From positions 1 through 40,956 of the forward strand of contig JAIQFY010000047.1 of the NCBI GenBank assembly GCA_020072965.1: a stretch of DNA of 40,956 nt, in the 5' to 3' direction. The DNA is from Terriglobia bacterium. GTDB lineage: Bacteria > Acidobacteriota > Terriglobia > JAIQFV01. The notes under the pieces are model-generated. The model saw only the letters and a program-made list of their open reading frames with translations, did not search any database and was not told the DNA's origin. A program made the position numbers and the translations under genes. Positions 1,717 to 37,675 of the stretch are shown piece by piece (positions within the stretch are counted from its first letter, which is position 1; each line of letters begins with the position of its first letter).

Positions 1717-3510
1717 CTAAGGCAGCGCACACCGATTTTCCTGCACCCCCGGGACTTTGACCCATTCATAGCCCTCAACCGCCGCCCCGCGGGGAAGATA
1801 TTCGATCTTGAATGTCTGATCCCCGCGCCGGACCTCGAACTGCACCTTCCGCGTCGGGTCTCCCATAAAAGGCTGCACAGCGAGCGGTTGCAAGACCTCG
1901 TCCCCCTCCCGCAACCCCGCGGCCGCCGCCGCCGAACCACTCACCAGTCCATGAACCATGCGGGGGGCAAGGTCGAGCGAGGCGTGTTCGTCGAAACCGA
2001 GTTCGAACAGCCGCATCTGAACCGGCCTGCGCTCGAAACAGGGCCCGAAAGCATTTGATGGTGGAACCACCGTGCTGCCCCTGACGATCATGGATTCGAA
2101 CTCCCCTTTTGCGGAGGGGCCGAGCACTGTTTCGAGTTTGCCCAGATAGACGTCCGTTGTCAGCGGTTTTCCTTGCCGGTGGCGGGCGAGCATCGAAAGG
2201 ATGATCGTATCGAGAGAAGTTTTCTCGTGTGAGGCCTTCCGAAGGCGGGAGTCGACATCGGCAAAATAGAGGCTTCCGCGGTCATAAGGAATGACTTGCG
2301 CATTGCGCTCCTTCCAGAACAATTTGGGAACCTCGTCGTTGGGGATATTCCGCAGCGGGTTTGTGTAATACCGGACCGCCGCTTGATTGGTCTCCTTCAG
2401 GTAATCGTCGGCCGACTGTAATTGAGCCCGCAGTGTTCCCAGCCGGGAGTAGTACTCTGCCAGGCCCTCGTGATACCAAGGGATGACGCCAGGCGGTCCT
2501 TCCAGTCCCACGACCCAGTTGTGAACCATTTCGTGCGCGATGATCAAGTGAGTGCTTGCCAGTCCGGATCCCTGAATGTCCTTATCAGGGAAAAACATCA
2601 TGAATGAATTCGTCAAGCCCGAGCCGCCGACGTTTTTGTAATCCGCCCCGAAGCGAAGAAAAAAGCGATAAGGGGTTCCACTCTGATCCGCAAAGAACAT
2701 CCTGTAATAGGAATTGCATTTCGCGGCCCAGGCCATCATCGCGTTTGCGTCGAATGGGGGAGACCCGACCCAGTAGGCACTGAAGTGGTCAACCGAGCCT
2801 TGGGCGGGATATCTCGCGATGCGCCCGGCCATGTAATAACTGGAATTCAGTTCTTCCATTTTCCCCAGGGCCTTCACGTCCCCGTCGCCAAGGCTTGACA
2901 CCCCCGATGAACCGGGAGGCATGTTTCGCAGGTCCCATCGCAGATGAATATTGAAAACACGTGTGTCGTCGGGAAGGATGAGGAACCCGGCGCCCGCACC
3001 GCTCATCCCGCCATCCTTGGCGCGAAGGGCGAAAGGCGGTCCCGGCCGGAGCCGGACCATCAGTTGCGACCGGTAGTGGACGTTCAGCGGCCACTGGACT
3101 TCTCGCGAAGCCTTCCATCTCCGCCAGGACATAAACCCACCCGTGTCCGCAGGGTCGTCGATCACCTCCACCGGAAGTTTCCCCTTCGCATCCGTCGCCT
3201 CCAAATCGTGGACGCTGTCGGCGATTCCGGTAATGCCGGCGTAAACTACAGGAATTCGCAAATCAGGCAGTGCGCCTTTGTTGCCTGCATTCATCCAGGT
3301 GAGACTGACTCCAACGCTCGAGATGTTTCCGTCCGGACCCGGGTCCGGACGGATCGTGACCCCCACAAAGGGATGAGGTCCCCTGGAATGCGCCGGGCCC
3401 ACCTCCTGCGCCTTCACCATGGCCGGTGCGGCGCTGGATAACATCAGAATGAGAAAGGTCGTCCGAGAGACCCTTGAGAAGATCCGTAGTTTCACACGAT
3501 TGACGAACAT
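1717..3510 (-). CDS. M61-like zinc metallopeptidase with C-terminal PDZ, copy 1
   Basis: Predicted exported zinc peptidase related to family M61 (glycyl aminopeptidase-like). It has an N-terminal signal peptide (about 1-35, ending VKAQE), a beta-rich N-terminal domain containing the signature GMSGAGAGFLILPDDTRVF, and a gluzincin active site: HEMVH at residues 326-330 and a third ligand Glu in WYHEGLAEYY (about E348). A C-terminal PDZ-like domain follows (VHGLVSGSAAAAAGLREGDEV, about 505-580). The start at 3510 has AGAGGA 8 nt upstream. A paralogue of similar length and the same architecture lies at 7525-9312. The gene sits between the exported RidA and the class V PLP enzyme, so it probably works on small peptides in the periplasm. 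The assignment to M61 rather than another HExxH clan MA family rests on the PDZ arrangement and is moderately sure. Confidence 0.85.
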   Translation of the reverse strand: MFVNRVKLRIFSRVSRTTFLILMLSSAAPAMVKAQEVGPAHSRGPHPFVGVTIRPDPGPDGNISSVGVSLTWMNAGNKGALPDLRIPVVYAGITGIADSVHDLEATDAKGKLPVEVIDDPADTGGFMSWRRWKASREVQWPLNVHYRSQLMVRLRPGPPFALRAKDGGMSGAGAGFLILPDDTRVFNIHLRWDLRNMPPGSSGVSSLGDGDVKALGKMEELNSSYYMAGRIARYPAQGSVDHFSAYWVGSPPFDANAMMAWAAKCNSYYRMFFADQSGTPYRFFLRFGADYKNVGGSGLTNSFMMFFPDKDIQGSGLASTHLIIAHEMVHNWVVGLEGPPGVIPWYHEGLAEYYSRLGTLRAQLQSADDYLKETNQAAVRYYTNPLRNIPNDEVPKLFWKERNAQVIPYDRGSLYFADVDSRLRKASHEKTSLDTIILSMLARHRQGKPLTTDVYLGKLETVLGPSAKGEFESMIVRGSTVVPPSNAFGPCFERRPVQMRLFELGFDEHASLDLAPRMVHGLVSGSAAAAAGLREGDEVLQPLAVQPFMGDPTRKVQFEVRRGDQTFKIEYLPRGAAVEGYEWVKVPGVQENRCALP

Positions 3511-23526: not shown

Positions 23527-23823
23527 CTAACCGCCGGCAATGGCCCCGATGATCATGAAGGGCTCGGCCCCGGACGCGACCGCGTCGGGGAGCGGCGTGT
23601 CCGGCGGGTCATGAGACAGGTCCTGCTCGCAGGCGAAGAACCGCAAAAACGGCCGGCGCTGTTGCGTCATGTGGTCGCGAATCGTACCGCGCAGCATCGG
23701 ATAGCGAGCCTCGAGCGCGTCGAGAACCGAGCGCGTGGTGACTTGACCCTTGATCTCGAGCTCCACCTCGCTGCTGACGTGGGCCAGGGTCCGAAGATGT
23801 TGCGGGAGGGTGACTCGAATCAT
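23527..23823 (-). CDS. MoaD/ThiS-family ubiquitin-like protein with C-terminal Gly-Gly
   Basis: 98-residue beta-grasp protein of the MoaD/ThiS type ([56 protein letters not shown]). It ends exactly in Gly-Gly, the feature needed for adenylation by an E1-like enzyme in sulfur carriers and in ubiquitin-like modifiers. The frame continues upstream inside the propeller gene, but the ATG at 23823 overlaps that gene's stop as ATGA, so the two are translationally coupled. No MoaE, ThiG, ThiF/MoeB or JAB protease gene is in the window, so a role in molybdopterin or thiazole synthesis is not supported by context. Pairing with the BNR propeller suggests a shared function. Confidence 0.85.
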
Positions 23824-24998
23824 GGCAACGTCTGGACCTCGACAGAAACTACGGCCGGAAGATCCCGGACGATGGGGGCCCAGCTGTCTCCGGCGTCCGC
23901 CGAGGCGTACACCTGTCCGCCCGTGGTGCCGAAATACACGCCGCATTGCTCGAGCGAGTCGACGGCCATCGCGTCGCGCAACACGTTGACGAAGCAATTG
24001 CGTTGCGGCAGACCTTTAGTGAGCGCTTCCCACTCGTTTCCGCCTGTCTGGCTGCGGTAAACGCGCAGCTTCCCATCCAGCGGAAAGTGCTCCGAGTCGC
24101 TCTTGATCGGGACGACGTAAATGGTCTCCGGCTCGTGCGCGTGCACATCGATCACAAATCCAAAGTCGGTCGGGAGGTTCCCACTGACCTCCTGCCACGA
24201 GTCCCCGGCGTTGTCGCTGCGCATAACATCCCAGTGCTTCTGCATGAACAGCACGTTCGGGCGCGACCGGTGCAGTGCAATTCGGTGAACGCAGTGACCG
24301 ACCTCGGCATCCGGATCCGGGATGTATTGGGACTTCAGCCCACGGTTGATCGGCTTCCATGTCTTCCCGGCATCGTCCGTACGGAAGGCGCCCGCCGCCG
24401 AGATGGCGATGTACATCCGCTGCGAATTGCTCGGGTCGAGAAGGATCGTGTGCAGGCACATGCCACCGGCGCCTGGGTGCCAGCCCGGCCCTGATTCGTG
24501 GCCGCGCAAACCCGCGAGTTCCTGCCAGCTCTTTCCGCCGTCGGTGGATCGGAACAAGGCGGCGTCTTCCACTCCGGCGTAGACGGTATCCGGATCCGTC
24601 GTTGAGGGTTCAAGATGCCAGACGCGCTTGAACTCCCAGGGATGGGGCTTACCGTCGTAAAACTGATGCGTGGTGAGGGGTTTGCCGGTTTCTGGCGTTG
24701 TGTCGTAAACGAATTTGTTGCTTTCGCCGGCAGGCATGCCGCCAGGCGCGATCGTGATCCCGCCTCCGGGCGCCTCCCACGTCTTGCCGCCGTCGCTGGA
24801 GCGCTGGATCACCTGACCGAACCATCCGCTGCACTGCGACGCGTACAACCGATTGGGATCAGCGGGTGAACCCTTGACGTGGTAGACCTCCCACCCCGTG
24901 AAGTGCGGACCACTGACCTTCCATCTTTTGCGCTTGCCGTCCGACGTCAGGATAAACGCACCCTTGCGTGTGCCGACCAATACTCTTACCTTGCTCAT
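23820..24998 (-). CDS. BNR/sialidase-like beta-propeller protein
   Basis: 392-residue predicted beta-propeller of the kind annotated as exo-alpha-sialidase or glycosyl hydrolase, but without an evident catalytic set. It begins [20 protein letters not shown] and contains several BNR/Asp-box-like motifs SxDxGxx[51 protein letters not shown]. There is no signal peptide, so it is predicted cytosolic, unusual for a sialidase. The open frame runs upstream, but the ATG at 24998 follows GGAAGGAG and matches the paralogous start at 34527. Its stop overlaps the MoaD-like start. Enzymatic activity is doubtful; a photosystem-assembly-like or scaffold role is possible. Confidence 0.85.
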
Positions 24999-25213
24999 TC
25001 GCACTCCTTCCTTTCTTTTGAGTTTGTCATGAAATCTCCGGCGCCTGAAGAGACCCCGGATTTCGCTTCTACGATCTTGACCCAATCTTTCACGACTCTT
25101 TTAAGCACTCCTCGTCGTCAAAGGGGTTCCTTCCCCCGTGACTACTACACCGCCGCGTTCTTGAAGAAGATAGATTATAGCGACGGATGACAGTATCTCG
25201 CAAGGTGCTACGC

Positions 25214-34526: not shown

Positions 34527-34682
34527 ATGACCGGCGGACGAGTCCTGGTCGGGACGCGCAAGGGTGCACTCATTCTGACTCCTGATGCAATGCGCGAACG
34601 GTGGAACATTACGGGCCCCCACTTTGCTGGCTGGGAAATCCACCCTCTCAAGGGATCTCGCGCAGACCTGAATCGGCTGTAG
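34527..34682 (+). pseudogene. N-terminal remnant of a second BNR propeller gene
   Basis: A 51-codon frame with ATG at 34527 and GGAAGAG upstream encodes [30 protein letters not shown] and a final ADLNRL, then stops at TAG. It aligns without gaps to residues 3-50 of the propeller at 23820-24998 ([36 protein letters not shown]), about 32 of 48 identical. In the intact gene the next residues are YASQ; here the Tyr codon position reads TAG and homology ends. The sigma54 activator begins 34 nt later. Confidence 0.8.
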
Positions 34683-34715: not shown

Positions 34716-36944
34716 ATGTCAGCACCAGCCCCGTCGGGCCCCAAGGCGACTCCTCAACGCAAGCCCGTTGAAGAACAATTGCGGGAGAGCGAACTCCGAA
34801 TTCGCGCCTTTTGGGAAAACAGCCCGAACTTGATTTTTCTCAAGGACAAAGAACTCCGTTACTTGTACGTCAATCGAGAATTTGAAAGAGCTCTCCGCGT
34901 CGATCGCGAACAGATCCGCGGCAAGACGGATCACGATGTGTTCCCACAAGAGCAGGCAATCGCCTTTCAAACCAACGACCTTGAGGTGCTCAAGGCGGGT
35001 GTCCCGATTGAATTCGAGGAGGTGACCCGGCAGGAAGACGGTCCGCACACAAGCATCGTCCATAAGTTTCCCCTTTTCGATGCGGCTGGCGAAATCTATG
35101 CGATCGGGGGCATCGTCACCGACATCACGGAGCGCAAACGATCGAGGGAAGCGCTCCAGCACAGCGAGGAGCGCTACCGAAACGTGGTCGAAACAGCAAC
35201 CGATGCCGTGGTCAGCGTCGATCAGAGTAGCCAAATTATTTTTGCGAATCCGGCGACAACCAGAACTTTCGGATATCAAATTTCCGAAATGATCGGACAG
35301 CCTCTGACGATGCTCATGCCTGAATTCATGCGTGAGCTTCATAAGGCGGGATTTCAGCGTTACCTGAAAACAAACCAACGCCACGCCGATTGGCAGGGAG
35401 TCAAGCTGATCGGCCTCCGGAAGAACGGGGAGGAATTCCCGGTTGAGGTCTCCTTCGGCGAGGTTGTAAAAGACGGCCATCACATATTTACCGGCTTCAT
35501 TCGCGACACCACCGAGCGGAAGCTGGCAGAAGAGAAAATCCGGGAACAAGACGCCGAGTTGCGACAGGTCCTGGATCTCGCGCCTCAGCACATCGTCGTT
35601 CTTGGGCCCGAAGGAAGTCGTCTTTACAGCAACCAGGCCGCGCTCGACTATTACGGACTTACTCTTGAGGAGTGGCGGAGCTGTGACCCGCGCCGCCTTT
35701 TTCACCCGGATGATTGCGAACGAATGACCGACGGAGCCCACATTAAAGTCTTAAGTGGGTCCCCGCCCGAGCGCGAAGCGCGGTTACTGGGAAAGGACGG
35801 GAAGTATCACTGGTTTCTTTTTCATCGCAACGCGCTGCGGGATGCACAGGGACACATCACGCGCTGGTATGTTGCGGCGACTGATATCGAGGACCGCAGG
35901 CAGGCTGAAGAGAGACTGCAGCACGAGAACGTTGCCCTGCGCGAAGAAATCGATAAGGCCTCGATGTTCGAGGAGATTGTCGGGAGCTCTCCCGCCTTGC
36001 AATCGCTGCTTAATCTTGTATCCAAGGTCGCTCCCACCGGCTCCACCGTTCTGATCACCGGCGAAACCGGGACAGGGAAAGAACTTGTAGCCCGCGCCAT
36101 CCACAGGCGGTCTCATCGCGCCTCACACGCCTTTGTCGGTGTGAATTGCGTCGCCATCCCGCGGGACTTGATCGCCTCAGAATTATTTGGCCACGAAAAG
36201 GGAGCCTTTACCGGGGCCACCCAGCTACGTTTGGGCCGCTTTGAATTGGCTGGAGGAGGCACGATCTTCCTCGATGAAGTCGGAGAGCTTCCGGCCGAGA
36301 CCCAGATCGCTCTCTTGCGGGTTCTGCAAGAACACGAATTTGAGCGTGTCGGCGGAATTCGATCCATCCAATCTGACGTTCGGGTGATTGCTGCCACGAA
36401 CTGTGACTTGCAGGCGGCCATCGCCGCCGGCGCGTTTCGGAGCGACCTGTTTTACCGGCTCAACGTTTTTCCGATTGAGATACCTCCTCTCCGGGACCGA
36501 AAAGAAGACATTCCCTTGCTGGTCGAGTACTTTATCGATCGCTACGCAAGAAAAGCGGGGAAGAGGATACGAACCATAGAGAAGAGCACCCTGGAACTGT
36601 TTCAGTCGTACCCCTGGCCGGGGAACATTCGGGAATTGCAGAACGTTATTGAGCGATCTGTTATCGTGTGCGAAACAGAGAATTTCTCGGTCGATGAGAG
36701 CTGGCTTTCTCGGGCGCTTCCTGCAACTGAATCGAACCGTCGGCTTGACCTTTATAAGAGTCTTTCGACTCAGGAGAAGGAAATCATTGAAGTTGCCTTG
36801 AGCGAAAGCGGGGGACGGGTTTCCGGACCGTCAGGCGCAGCTGCCAAGCTGGGTATGCCGCGTTCGACCCTGGAGTCGAAGATTCGGTCCCTGAAGATCA
36901 ACAAGGTTCGATTCAAAACTGCGAAGCCCTCTGAGAACAACTAG
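34716..36944 (+). CDS. PAS-containing sigma54-dependent transcriptional activator
   Basis: 742-residue enhancer-binding protein. Three PAS units (about 28-145, ENSPNLIFLKDKELRYLYVN; 150-275, VVSVDQSSQIIFANPATTRT; 285-405, ILVV-like APQHIVVLGPEGSRLYSNQA) precede an AAA+ domain (about 425-660) with Walker A GETGTGKE, the sigma54-contact loop GAFTGA, and Walker B GGGTIFLDEVGEL. A Fis-type HTH closes it (GAAAKLGMPRSTLESKIRSL). No response-regulator receiver and no transmembrane segment, so it senses an intracellular signal directly through PAS. The ATG at 34716 has AAGAGG at 6 nt; a TTG at 34692 is less likely. A likely target promoter with palindromic sites lies immediately downstream. Confidence 0.93.
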   Translation: MSAPAPSGPKATPQRKPVEEQLRESELRIRAFWENSPNLIFLKDKELRYLYVNREFERALRVDREQIRGKTDHDVFPQEQAIAFQTNDLEVLKAGVPIEFEEVTRQEDGPHTSIVHKFPLFDAAGEIYAIGGIVTDITERKRSREALQHSEERYRNVVETATDAVVSVDQSSQIIFANPATTRTFGYQISEMIGQPLTMLMPEFMRELHKAGFQRYLKTNQRHADWQGVKLIGLRKNGEEFPVEVSFGEVVKDGHHIFTGFIRDTTERKLAEEKIREQDAELRQVLDLAPQHIVVLGPEGSRLYSNQAALDYYGLTLEEWRSCDPRRLFHPDDCERMTDGAHIKVLSGSPPEREARLLGKDGKYHWFLFHRNALRDAQGHITRWYVAATDIEDRRQAEERLQHENVALREEIDKASMFEEIVGSSPALQSLLNLVSKVAPTGSTVLITGETGTGKELVARAIHRRSHRASHAFVGVNCVAIPRDLIASELFGHEKGAFTGATQLRLGRFELAGGGTIFLDEVGELPAETQIALLRVLQEHEFERVGGIRSIQSDVRVIAATNCDLQAAIAAGAFRSDLFYRLNVFPIEIPPLRDRKEDIPLLVEYFIDRYARKAGKRIRTIEKSTLELFQSYPWPGNIRELQNVIERSVIVCETENFSVDESWLSRALPATESNRRLDLYKSLSTQEKEIIEVALSESGGRVSGPSGAAAKLGMPRSTLESKIRSLKINKVRFKTAKPSENN

Positions 36945-36995
36945 CCTTCCTTCGTCCGAGCCCCTCGGAAAATAAGACAGGATTTTTGTACAACT

Positions 36996-37020
36996 TTCGC
37001 CAATTGGCGAAGCTTCGCCA
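36996..37020. promoter_or_regulatory. Candidate upstream activating site: two overlapping 16-bp palindromes
   Basis: TTCGCCAATTGGCGAA (36996-37011) and TGGCGAAGCTTCGCCA (37005-37020) are each perfect palindromes and share seven bases, giving three alternating TTCGCC half-sites. They centre about 80 nt before the predicted sigma54 start, a usual distance for enhancer-binding proteins, and directly follow the activator gene. Confidence 0.65.
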
Positions 37021-37061
37021 TCTCTCGATCTGTCAATTAATCCATTTTCATCTGGTTACGA

Positions 37062-37078
37062 TTGGAGCCTGAGTTGCA
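37062..37078 (+). promoter_or_regulatory. Candidate sigma54 (-24/-12) promoter
   Basis: TTGGAGCCTGAGTTGCA matches the sigma54 form TTGG-N8-TTGCA: GG (37064-37065) and GC (37076-37077) are separated by the required 10 nt. Transcription would start near 37089, about 33 nt before the STAS gene ATG. The adjacent sigma54 activator and palindromes make chance less likely. Confidence 0.7.
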
Positions 37079-37121
37079 GCGTTATCGTACTTAGCTCATT
37101 TCACATTTCAAAAGAGGGAAG

Positions 37122-37436
37122 ATGCTGAAGATTCGCAGATCAGCAAACGGGGAGGTGATTCTCACTTTGAGCGGCCGTATGAACGCGGAAAATGAAGCCG
37201 AGTTGAAAACACTATTTGAATCAGAAACGAAAGGGCGCCGCATCGTTCTGGATTTGGAGGACCTGACCCTTGTGGATCGGGAAGCTGTCAGGTTTCTCGG
37301 GCGCTGCGAAGCAGAGGGCATCAAGCTCGAGAATTGTCCGGCCTATATCCGGGAGTGGATTGAGCGAGAGAGAGGCGGAGATTCCCCGGCAAACGGTGAA
37401 CGGTTTCAGGGGCCCGGCGCGCATCCGCGATCATGA
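37122..37436 (+). CDS. STAS-domain protein lacking the usual phosphorylation Ser
   Basis: 104-residue protein with a STAS fold (about 1-85): MLKIRRSANGEVILTLSGRM, IVLDLEDLTLVDREAVRFLG, CPAYIREWIERE. In SpoIIAA-type anti-anti-sigma factors the loop has D-S-S-G with a phosphorylatable Ser; here it is D-R-E-A, so classic kinase control is unlikely. GAGGGA precedes the ATG. It is placed behind the sigma54-type promoter and is probably the main target of the neighbouring activator. Likely role: a protein-binding module in a signalling switch; partner unknown. The C-terminal tail (GGDSPANGERFQGPGAHPRS) looks disordered. Confidence 0.78.
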   Translation: MLKIRRSANGEVILTLSGRMNAENEAELKTLFESETKGRRIVLDLEDLTLVDREAVRFLGRCEAEGIKLENCPAYIREWIERERGGDSPANGERFQGPGAHPRS

Positions 37437-37466: not shown

Positions 37467-37675
37467 ATGGAGCAGAAGACAGCAGACACTTTGATCCCCG
37501 TTGCCGTGACGGTGTTCCGGGCGAGATCTACCGTGCGCCAAAAAGCTGGGCCGAGCGCGGTTATCACAACCTCATTTATTTTCTTAAGCTCGACAAGGGC
37601 GGCCACTTCGCGTCGTGGGAACAGCCCGAACTCTTCGCGGCCGAACTCCGCGCGGCCTTCAGATCACTGCGCTAG
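37467..37675 (+). pseudogene. Frameshifted C-terminal remnant of an epoxide hydrolase
   Basis: The first frame reads ADTLIPVAVTVF; after a missing base near 37520 the next frame reads PGEIYRAPKSWAERGYHNLI then [18 protein letters not shown] and FRSLR with TAG at 37673. It aligns with the C-terminus of the intact epoxide hydrolase at 39530 ([42 protein letters not shown]), about 37 of 53 identical. The catalytic His region is kept, but everything before about residue 335 is gone. It is followed 91 nt later by a RidA gene. Confidence 0.88.

Follow-up and report, generated by a model that had tools for sequence, protein, structure and literature searches.

A predicted local sigma54 switch before a STAS gene in a soil acidobacterium, and paired variation of activator helix and operator among its relatives

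The window, i.e., the whole stretch of DNA that was analyzed, covers 40,956 nucleotides of contig JAIQFY010000047.1 from a Terriglobia bacterium of the phylum Acidobacteriota (assembly GCA_020072965.1). It carries the gene of a sigma54-dependent activator (bEBP), followed on the same strand by that of a small STAS protein, and the region between them contains a set of putative regulatory elements (Table 1). Genes encoding RidA, a DUF6130-cytochrome P460 protein and an epoxide hydrolase come after the STAS gene, and none of these downstream neighbors resembles an RsbW-type kinase.

Table 1. Features of the activator-STAS region (positions in the window)
Feature	Position	Strand	Basis or remark
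Sigma54-dependent activator (bEBP)	34716..36944	+	three PAS folds, AAA+ with GAFTGA, Fis-type HTH
Candidate operator half-site 1, TTCGCCAA	36996..37003	+	exact; kept in same-genus genome
Candidate operator half-site 2, TTGGCGAA	37004..37011	-	pairs with half-site 1 to form the main dyad
Candidate operator half-site 3, CTTCGCCA	37013..37020	+	alternating orientation, 9-bp pitch; forms the second palindrome with half-site 2
Conserved box TTTTCA-N5-TTACGA	37045..37061	+	immediately 5' of the -24 element; column conservation
Predicted sigma54 -24/-12 element, TTGGAGCCTGAGTTGCA	37062..37078	+	GG 37064-37065, GC 37076-37077; identical in same-genus genome
GAGGG, likely STAS ribosome binding site	37114..37118	+	sequence
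Single-domain STAS protein, 104 aa	37122..37436	+	Pfam STAS_2/STAS marginal

The activator produced Pfam matches to PF00158 (E=4.9e-69), to PAS_4, PAS_9 and PAS_3, and to HTH_8 (E=9.5e-6), and its translation contains the string EKGAFTGATQ. An AAA+ sigma54-interaction domain with a GAFTGA loop, a Fis-type HTH (HTH_8) and a sensory portion of three PAS stretches are therefore all present in the one protein. The recognition helix is GMPRSTLESKIRSL, of which the first residue is Arg (the R in GMPRSTLESK). In the genome as a whole, 22 strong sigma54-activator domains were detected. The Pfam assignments and the translations agree with the earlier reading of this DNA from sequence only, which had placed palindromes and a promoter between a PAS sigma54 activator and a STAS gene. 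Upstream of the activator, a short ORF (∼34527-34682) resembles the N-terminal part of a minus-strand gene product (23820-25085) and is perhaps a truncated second copy of that gene.

Two exact 16-bp palindromes, TTCGCCAATTGGCGAA (36996-37011) and TGGCGAAGCTTCGCCA (37005-37020), overlap via a common half-site. From their dyad centers to the predicted transcription start is a distance of ∼85 and ∼76 bp, respectively, in accordance with the earlier description of two overlapping 16-bp palindromes ∼80 nt before that start. The 41-kb window contains three perfect 16-bp palindromes in total, the third of which (CCGGACCCGGGTCCGG, 3333-3348) is situated within a minus-strand ORF. The chance expectation is ∼0.6, such that a single palindrome of this length is near chance, and the case for an operator was consequently built on overlap, position and conservation. 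The main dyad, formed by half-sites 1 and 2, is centered at 37003.5, i.e., 72.5 bp from the GC of the -12 element. In a second species of the same genus, the first palindrome and the -24/-12 element are identical within otherwise diverged intergenic DNA, and a 1-bp insertion shifts the second palindrome, whose perfect symmetry is lost. An 8-bp palindrome, TTGTACAA (36986-36993), occupies the place of a left outer half-site and is kept in the sister genome.

The predicted promoter is the sole occurrence of TTGG-N8-TTGCA in the window and exhibits the GG-N10-GC spacing of sigma54 promoters, which would place the transcription start at ∼37089. Chance alone would yield 0.35 such occurrences, so that the element by itself is weak; its -24 half reads TGGAGC (versus TGGCAC), and its score, 10 out of 12 informative positions, is unremarkable. 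The promoter proposed in the sequence-only reading is nevertheless supported by the spacing, by the identity of the element in the same-genus genome and by the -24/-12 sites of relatives, and the genome contains an rpoN gene (a single PF04552 match, E=4.3e-56). In its family form TTTTCA-N5-TTRCR, the box immediately 5' of the -24 element shows conservation across 59 relatives (excluding the window and its same-genus relative), and it is perhaps a contact for the alpha subunit of RNA polymerase. The exact combination of box and -24/-12 element has a single mismatch-free occurrence in the genome, and no such box was seen at the paralogous promoter on G000:C52 (see below).

Relatives of the STAS protein were collected by searching genomes across the class, by scanning 84,980 species genomes and from retrieved regions. 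The 138 distinct relatives originate mostly from Acidobacteriota, including Edaphobacter, and also from MAGs filed under other soil phyla. In 71 of the 138, a sigma54 activator gene of the same orientation ends 30-450 nt before the STAS gene, and a -24/-12 site (counted at a score of at least 9 out of 12) is present in 63 of these 71 activator-STAS pairs. In an earlier set of 37 such intergenic regions, 32 had such a site and 17 had a dyad whose arms measured at least 7 bp, compared with 2.4 and 1.4, respectively, after dinucleotide shuffling. The activator, the operator and the sigma54 promoter are conserved jointly across the class Terriglobia and in MAGs placed under other phyla. The gene order varies in some cases: in loci L058, L059, L061, L064 and L066 a ClpB-like AAA protein lies between the activator and the STAS protein, and in L058, L061 and L064 the STAS gene is followed by that of a short second sigma54 activator (bEBP). 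The genus also possesses a second activator-STAS pair (L159 on G000:C52 and L160 on G001:C11), followed by an ECF sigma factor gene. In the host genome (G000:C52) the dyad of this paralogous pair, CCACGATATTTCGTGG, stands farther from its -24/-12 element, and the pair was left out of the dyad, spacing and covariation statistics, which comprise 40 clear loci.

In these 40 loci, the dyad center is located 73.0 bp from the -12 GC with an SD of 1.1 bp, a spread that is capped by the confinement of the search to 8 columns; an unrestricted search gave the same value (median 72.5). The corresponding SDs are 18.8 for the distance to the STAS start and 43 bp for that to the activator stop. Such fixed spacing between dyad and promoter is expected of an enhancer held at a set helical phase. 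Moreover, one or more further half-sites in alternating orientation occur ±13/14 bp from the main center in 34 of the 40 loci, compared with 0.42 of 40 at control offsets. On this comparative evidence, the overlapping palindromes of the window represent the local form of a family-wide array of alternating half-sites with a 9-bp pitch; the earlier view of two palindromes was correct in that both are exact, but they are better seen as a portion of this array. Such an array would have room for more than one dimer.

For the covariation analysis, operator centers were picked by symmetry and position only, blind to the protein, and 24 of 64 pairs without a clear dyad at the set position were excluded. 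Among the remaining rows, which are related and not fully independent, the first helix residue (x1) shared 0.92 bits of mutual information with operator base -3 (0.27 when shuffled; z 9.7). For base -4, covariation reached z 3.8 with the next residue (x2) and z 5.0 with the D/E that follows TL, and every other combination of residue and base remained at z ≤2.9. Base -3 was C with Arg in 35 of 44 arms, G with Ala in 16 of 18 and A with Gln in 5 of 6. Counted in another manner, C(-3) was found in 20 of 22 Arg-type cases versus 1 of 18 others (Fisher 4e-8), and 15 of the 18 nearest discordant pairs agreed. On the tree of the activator AAA+ domains, the helix class and the base class each change 7 times and their joint state only 9 times. 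The concentration of the signal on two base positions counts against common ancestry as its sole cause. Given the covariation of the recognition helix with base -3, the adjacent activator very probably binds the operator array. In one genome (G373), six paralogous pairs display six helix/operator combinations, two of them with weaker dyads, and these pairs may be insulated from one another.

The host genome contains the operator 16-mer only once, and a sample of 296 other genomes from the phylum lacks it altogether; the same-genus genome, which lies outside that sample, has it. Matches with up to two mismatches in the genome numbered 4, hardly more than the 3 of a reversed control pattern. A genome search had been expected to reveal a full regulon, but it returned this single site, with no second exact 16-mer in the host genome that would indicate a wider one. 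Owing to the uniqueness of the 16-mer, the switch most likely has one local target. A REP-like repeat element was ruled out on the same count. The notion of a self-contained switch with a clear DNA target is supported by the conserved design, the fixed spacing and the covariation of helix and operator, and is retained in a one-target, local form.

The STAS protein carries an NCPxYIREW signature near its C-terminus. Profile matches in the PDB included TM1442 and SpoIIAA, and in a Foldseek search its structure model matched RsbV (E=1.4e-4) and SpoIIAA (E=6.1e-4) best, with MlaB also among the matches; the fold is that of the SpoIIAA/RsbV antagonists. The position of the phosphorylated Ser58 of SpoIIAA is occupied by Glu54, rather than by a phosphorylatable Ser or Thr. 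Of 130 relatives, 52 carry E here, 46 carry D, 3 carry S and 2 carry T (Glu/Asp in 98 of 130). The earlier remark that the protein lacks the phosphorylatable Ser therefore holds for the residue itself, but not in the sense of a plain loss, since the position is acidic in most relatives. The label of anti-anti-sigma factor was not adopted in view of the missing phospho-serine. With Glu at the classical phospho-serine position, the STAS protein is probably controlled by the amount made, rather than by a kinase and phosphorylation.

The first gene after the STAS gene was tallied in 48 relatives, with ATPase domains counted as a group. It encodes a second sigma54 activator in 12 cases, a histidine-kinase-type ATPase in 9 and a sigma70-family factor in 6; efflux pumps and metabolic enzymes are found among the others. 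The STAS protein may act on such a neighboring regulator. The STAS gene of the sister species is followed by genes for an MFS transporter and a kinase-like protein, and in that place the window contains the remnant of an epoxide-hydrolase C-terminus (37494-37675; 72.8% to the intact gene of the sister genome). As the downstream MFS transporter of the sister species is gone in the host, the output of the host copy may be reduced.

The inverted repeats begin 52 nt past the activator stop, and one could regard them as a transcription terminator (or RNA switch) of the activator gene instead of an enhancer; the repeat RNA is able to fold (z -2.1, equaled by 7 of 200 shuffles). However, no terminator-like site and no T-run follow the repeats, the dyad keeps its distance to the promoter and not to the activator stop, and the operator letters covary with the DNA-reading helix of the protein. 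The spacing data and the absence of a T-run led us to discard the terminator as extremely improbable. Some other regulator (a repressor or nucleoid protein) could also occupy the dyad, since palindromes of 16 bp are used by many regulators. A locus that bears on this point is L070 (2300-2640), where the same 16-mer precedes a sigma54-like promoter by ∼72 bp, ahead of a STAS gene; its upstream gene is divergent, and the PAS activator was not found within the 5.5-kb stretch. The short bEBP downstream in L070, however, likewise has an Arg-Ser-Thr helix, and binding by a different regulator would account poorly for covariation that centers on residues of the recognition helix and on bases -3 and -4 of the operator, or for a dyad fixed relative to the sigma54 promoter. 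We consider it very improbable, and favor the adjacent activator as the protein that binds the array.

The remaining alternative concerns the STAS protein itself, which might be an ordinary antagonist of the SpoIIAA/RsbV type, operating in a kinase/phosphatase partner switch and only incidentally expressed from a sigma54 promoter. RsbV and SpoIIAA are indeed its best structural matches, and the ATPase domains (9 of 48) and sigma70-family factors (6) encoded downstream in relatives would fit such a role. In contrast, only 3 of the 130 relatives have Ser at the Ser58 position, the score against TIGR00377, the general model of STAS antagonists, is 20.7 with a cut-off of 53, and no gene seen just downstream in the window looks like an RsbW-type kinase. 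An ordinary antagonist is thus unlikely, and we prefer a STAS protein that is controlled by its synthesis.

Taken together, we are confident that the host, a soil acidobacterium, has a compact, local and dedicated sigma54 switch, composed of activator, half-site array and promoter, that drives the STAS gene; the sequence comparison reveals its architecture and spacing, the conservation of its parts, their covariation and the one site in the genome. The design recurs in dozens of relatives, and a change of helix goes together with a change of target base, which argues for a real switch and a testable recognition code. The signal, binding, oligomerization and the events beyond the STAS protein would proceed as follows. 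The PAS activator would sense some signal, and its dimers would bind the alternating half-sites TTCGCCAA, TTGGCGAA and TTCGCCA, at a 9-bp pitch, centered ∼85 bp before the start. There the activator would assemble an AAA+ ring, which would remodel the sigma54 polymerase at the -24/-12 element and thereby turn on the STAS gene. The first helix residue would read base -3 (Arg-C, Ala-G, Gln-A), and the neighboring residues would tune base -4. Specificity would thereby reside in the recognition helix, and cross-talk between paralogous switches in one cell would not be expected. The level of the STAS protein, rather than a kinase, would probably control its action, and the protein may modulate the second-tier regulator or efflux pump often encoded beside it in relatives.

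More tentatively, and with considerable doubt, one may imagine widespread insulated switches of one activator, one enhancer and one promoter in the Acidobacteriota, diversified by paired changes of helix and operator. Their common target would be a phospho-mimic STAS protein acting by abundance on an adjoining second-tier regulator (a second sigma54 activator, a histidine kinase or an ECF sigma factor), as a kinase-free, transcription-gated partner switch. The natural variation itself offers a directly testable recognition code for the Fis-type HTH of sigma54 activators, and the genome with six paralogous pairs may hold ready-made orthogonal switches of use in circuit design. The locus also points to a large uncharacterized branch of single-domain STAS proteins, acidic at the regulated-serine position and often located beside other regulators in Acidobacteriota.

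In the open-access literature, we found no STAS target of one-component sigma54 activators, and nothing relevant on STAS proteins with enhancer-binding proteins or on sigma54 regulation in Acidobacteria. The single-domain antagonists SpoIIAA and RsbV (reviewed in PMC8256260) resemble the STAS protein in fold and size. Unlike them, it has an acidic residue at the phospho-serine position and the NCPxYIREW signature, and it lies under a predicted dedicated sigma54 promoter with no RsbW-type kinase seen adjoining. STAS subunits of the MlaB type share the fold, as seen among the PDB matches, but no Mla transporter genes were noticed among the annotated neighbors. In the Fis/NtrC-type HTH, the first residue of the recognition helix contacts DNA: crystal structures show Fis Arg85 in direct contact with a conserved guanine (PMC4784862). 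The register between this residue and the Arg of the window was set by aligning the conserved R-x-TL helix by eye, as a PDB search with the isolated HTH gave no useful match. Fis, in contrast, mainly reads DNA shape, with contacts at ±7, whereas here base -3 from the center covaries, and in the present activators this helix position is occupied by different residues (R, A, P, Q, G, T). A parallel in arrangement is offered by the one-component sigma54 activators of Desulfovibrio vulgaris with local targets (PMC4641369), whose genes lie beside sigma54 promoters and whose operators consist of inverted half-sites, in one case with three conserved half-sites. In that regulome, motif similarity did not always follow the similarity of the DNA-binding domains (PMC4641369), whereas here a single design appears to be repeated across the phylum, with a residue-by-base code.
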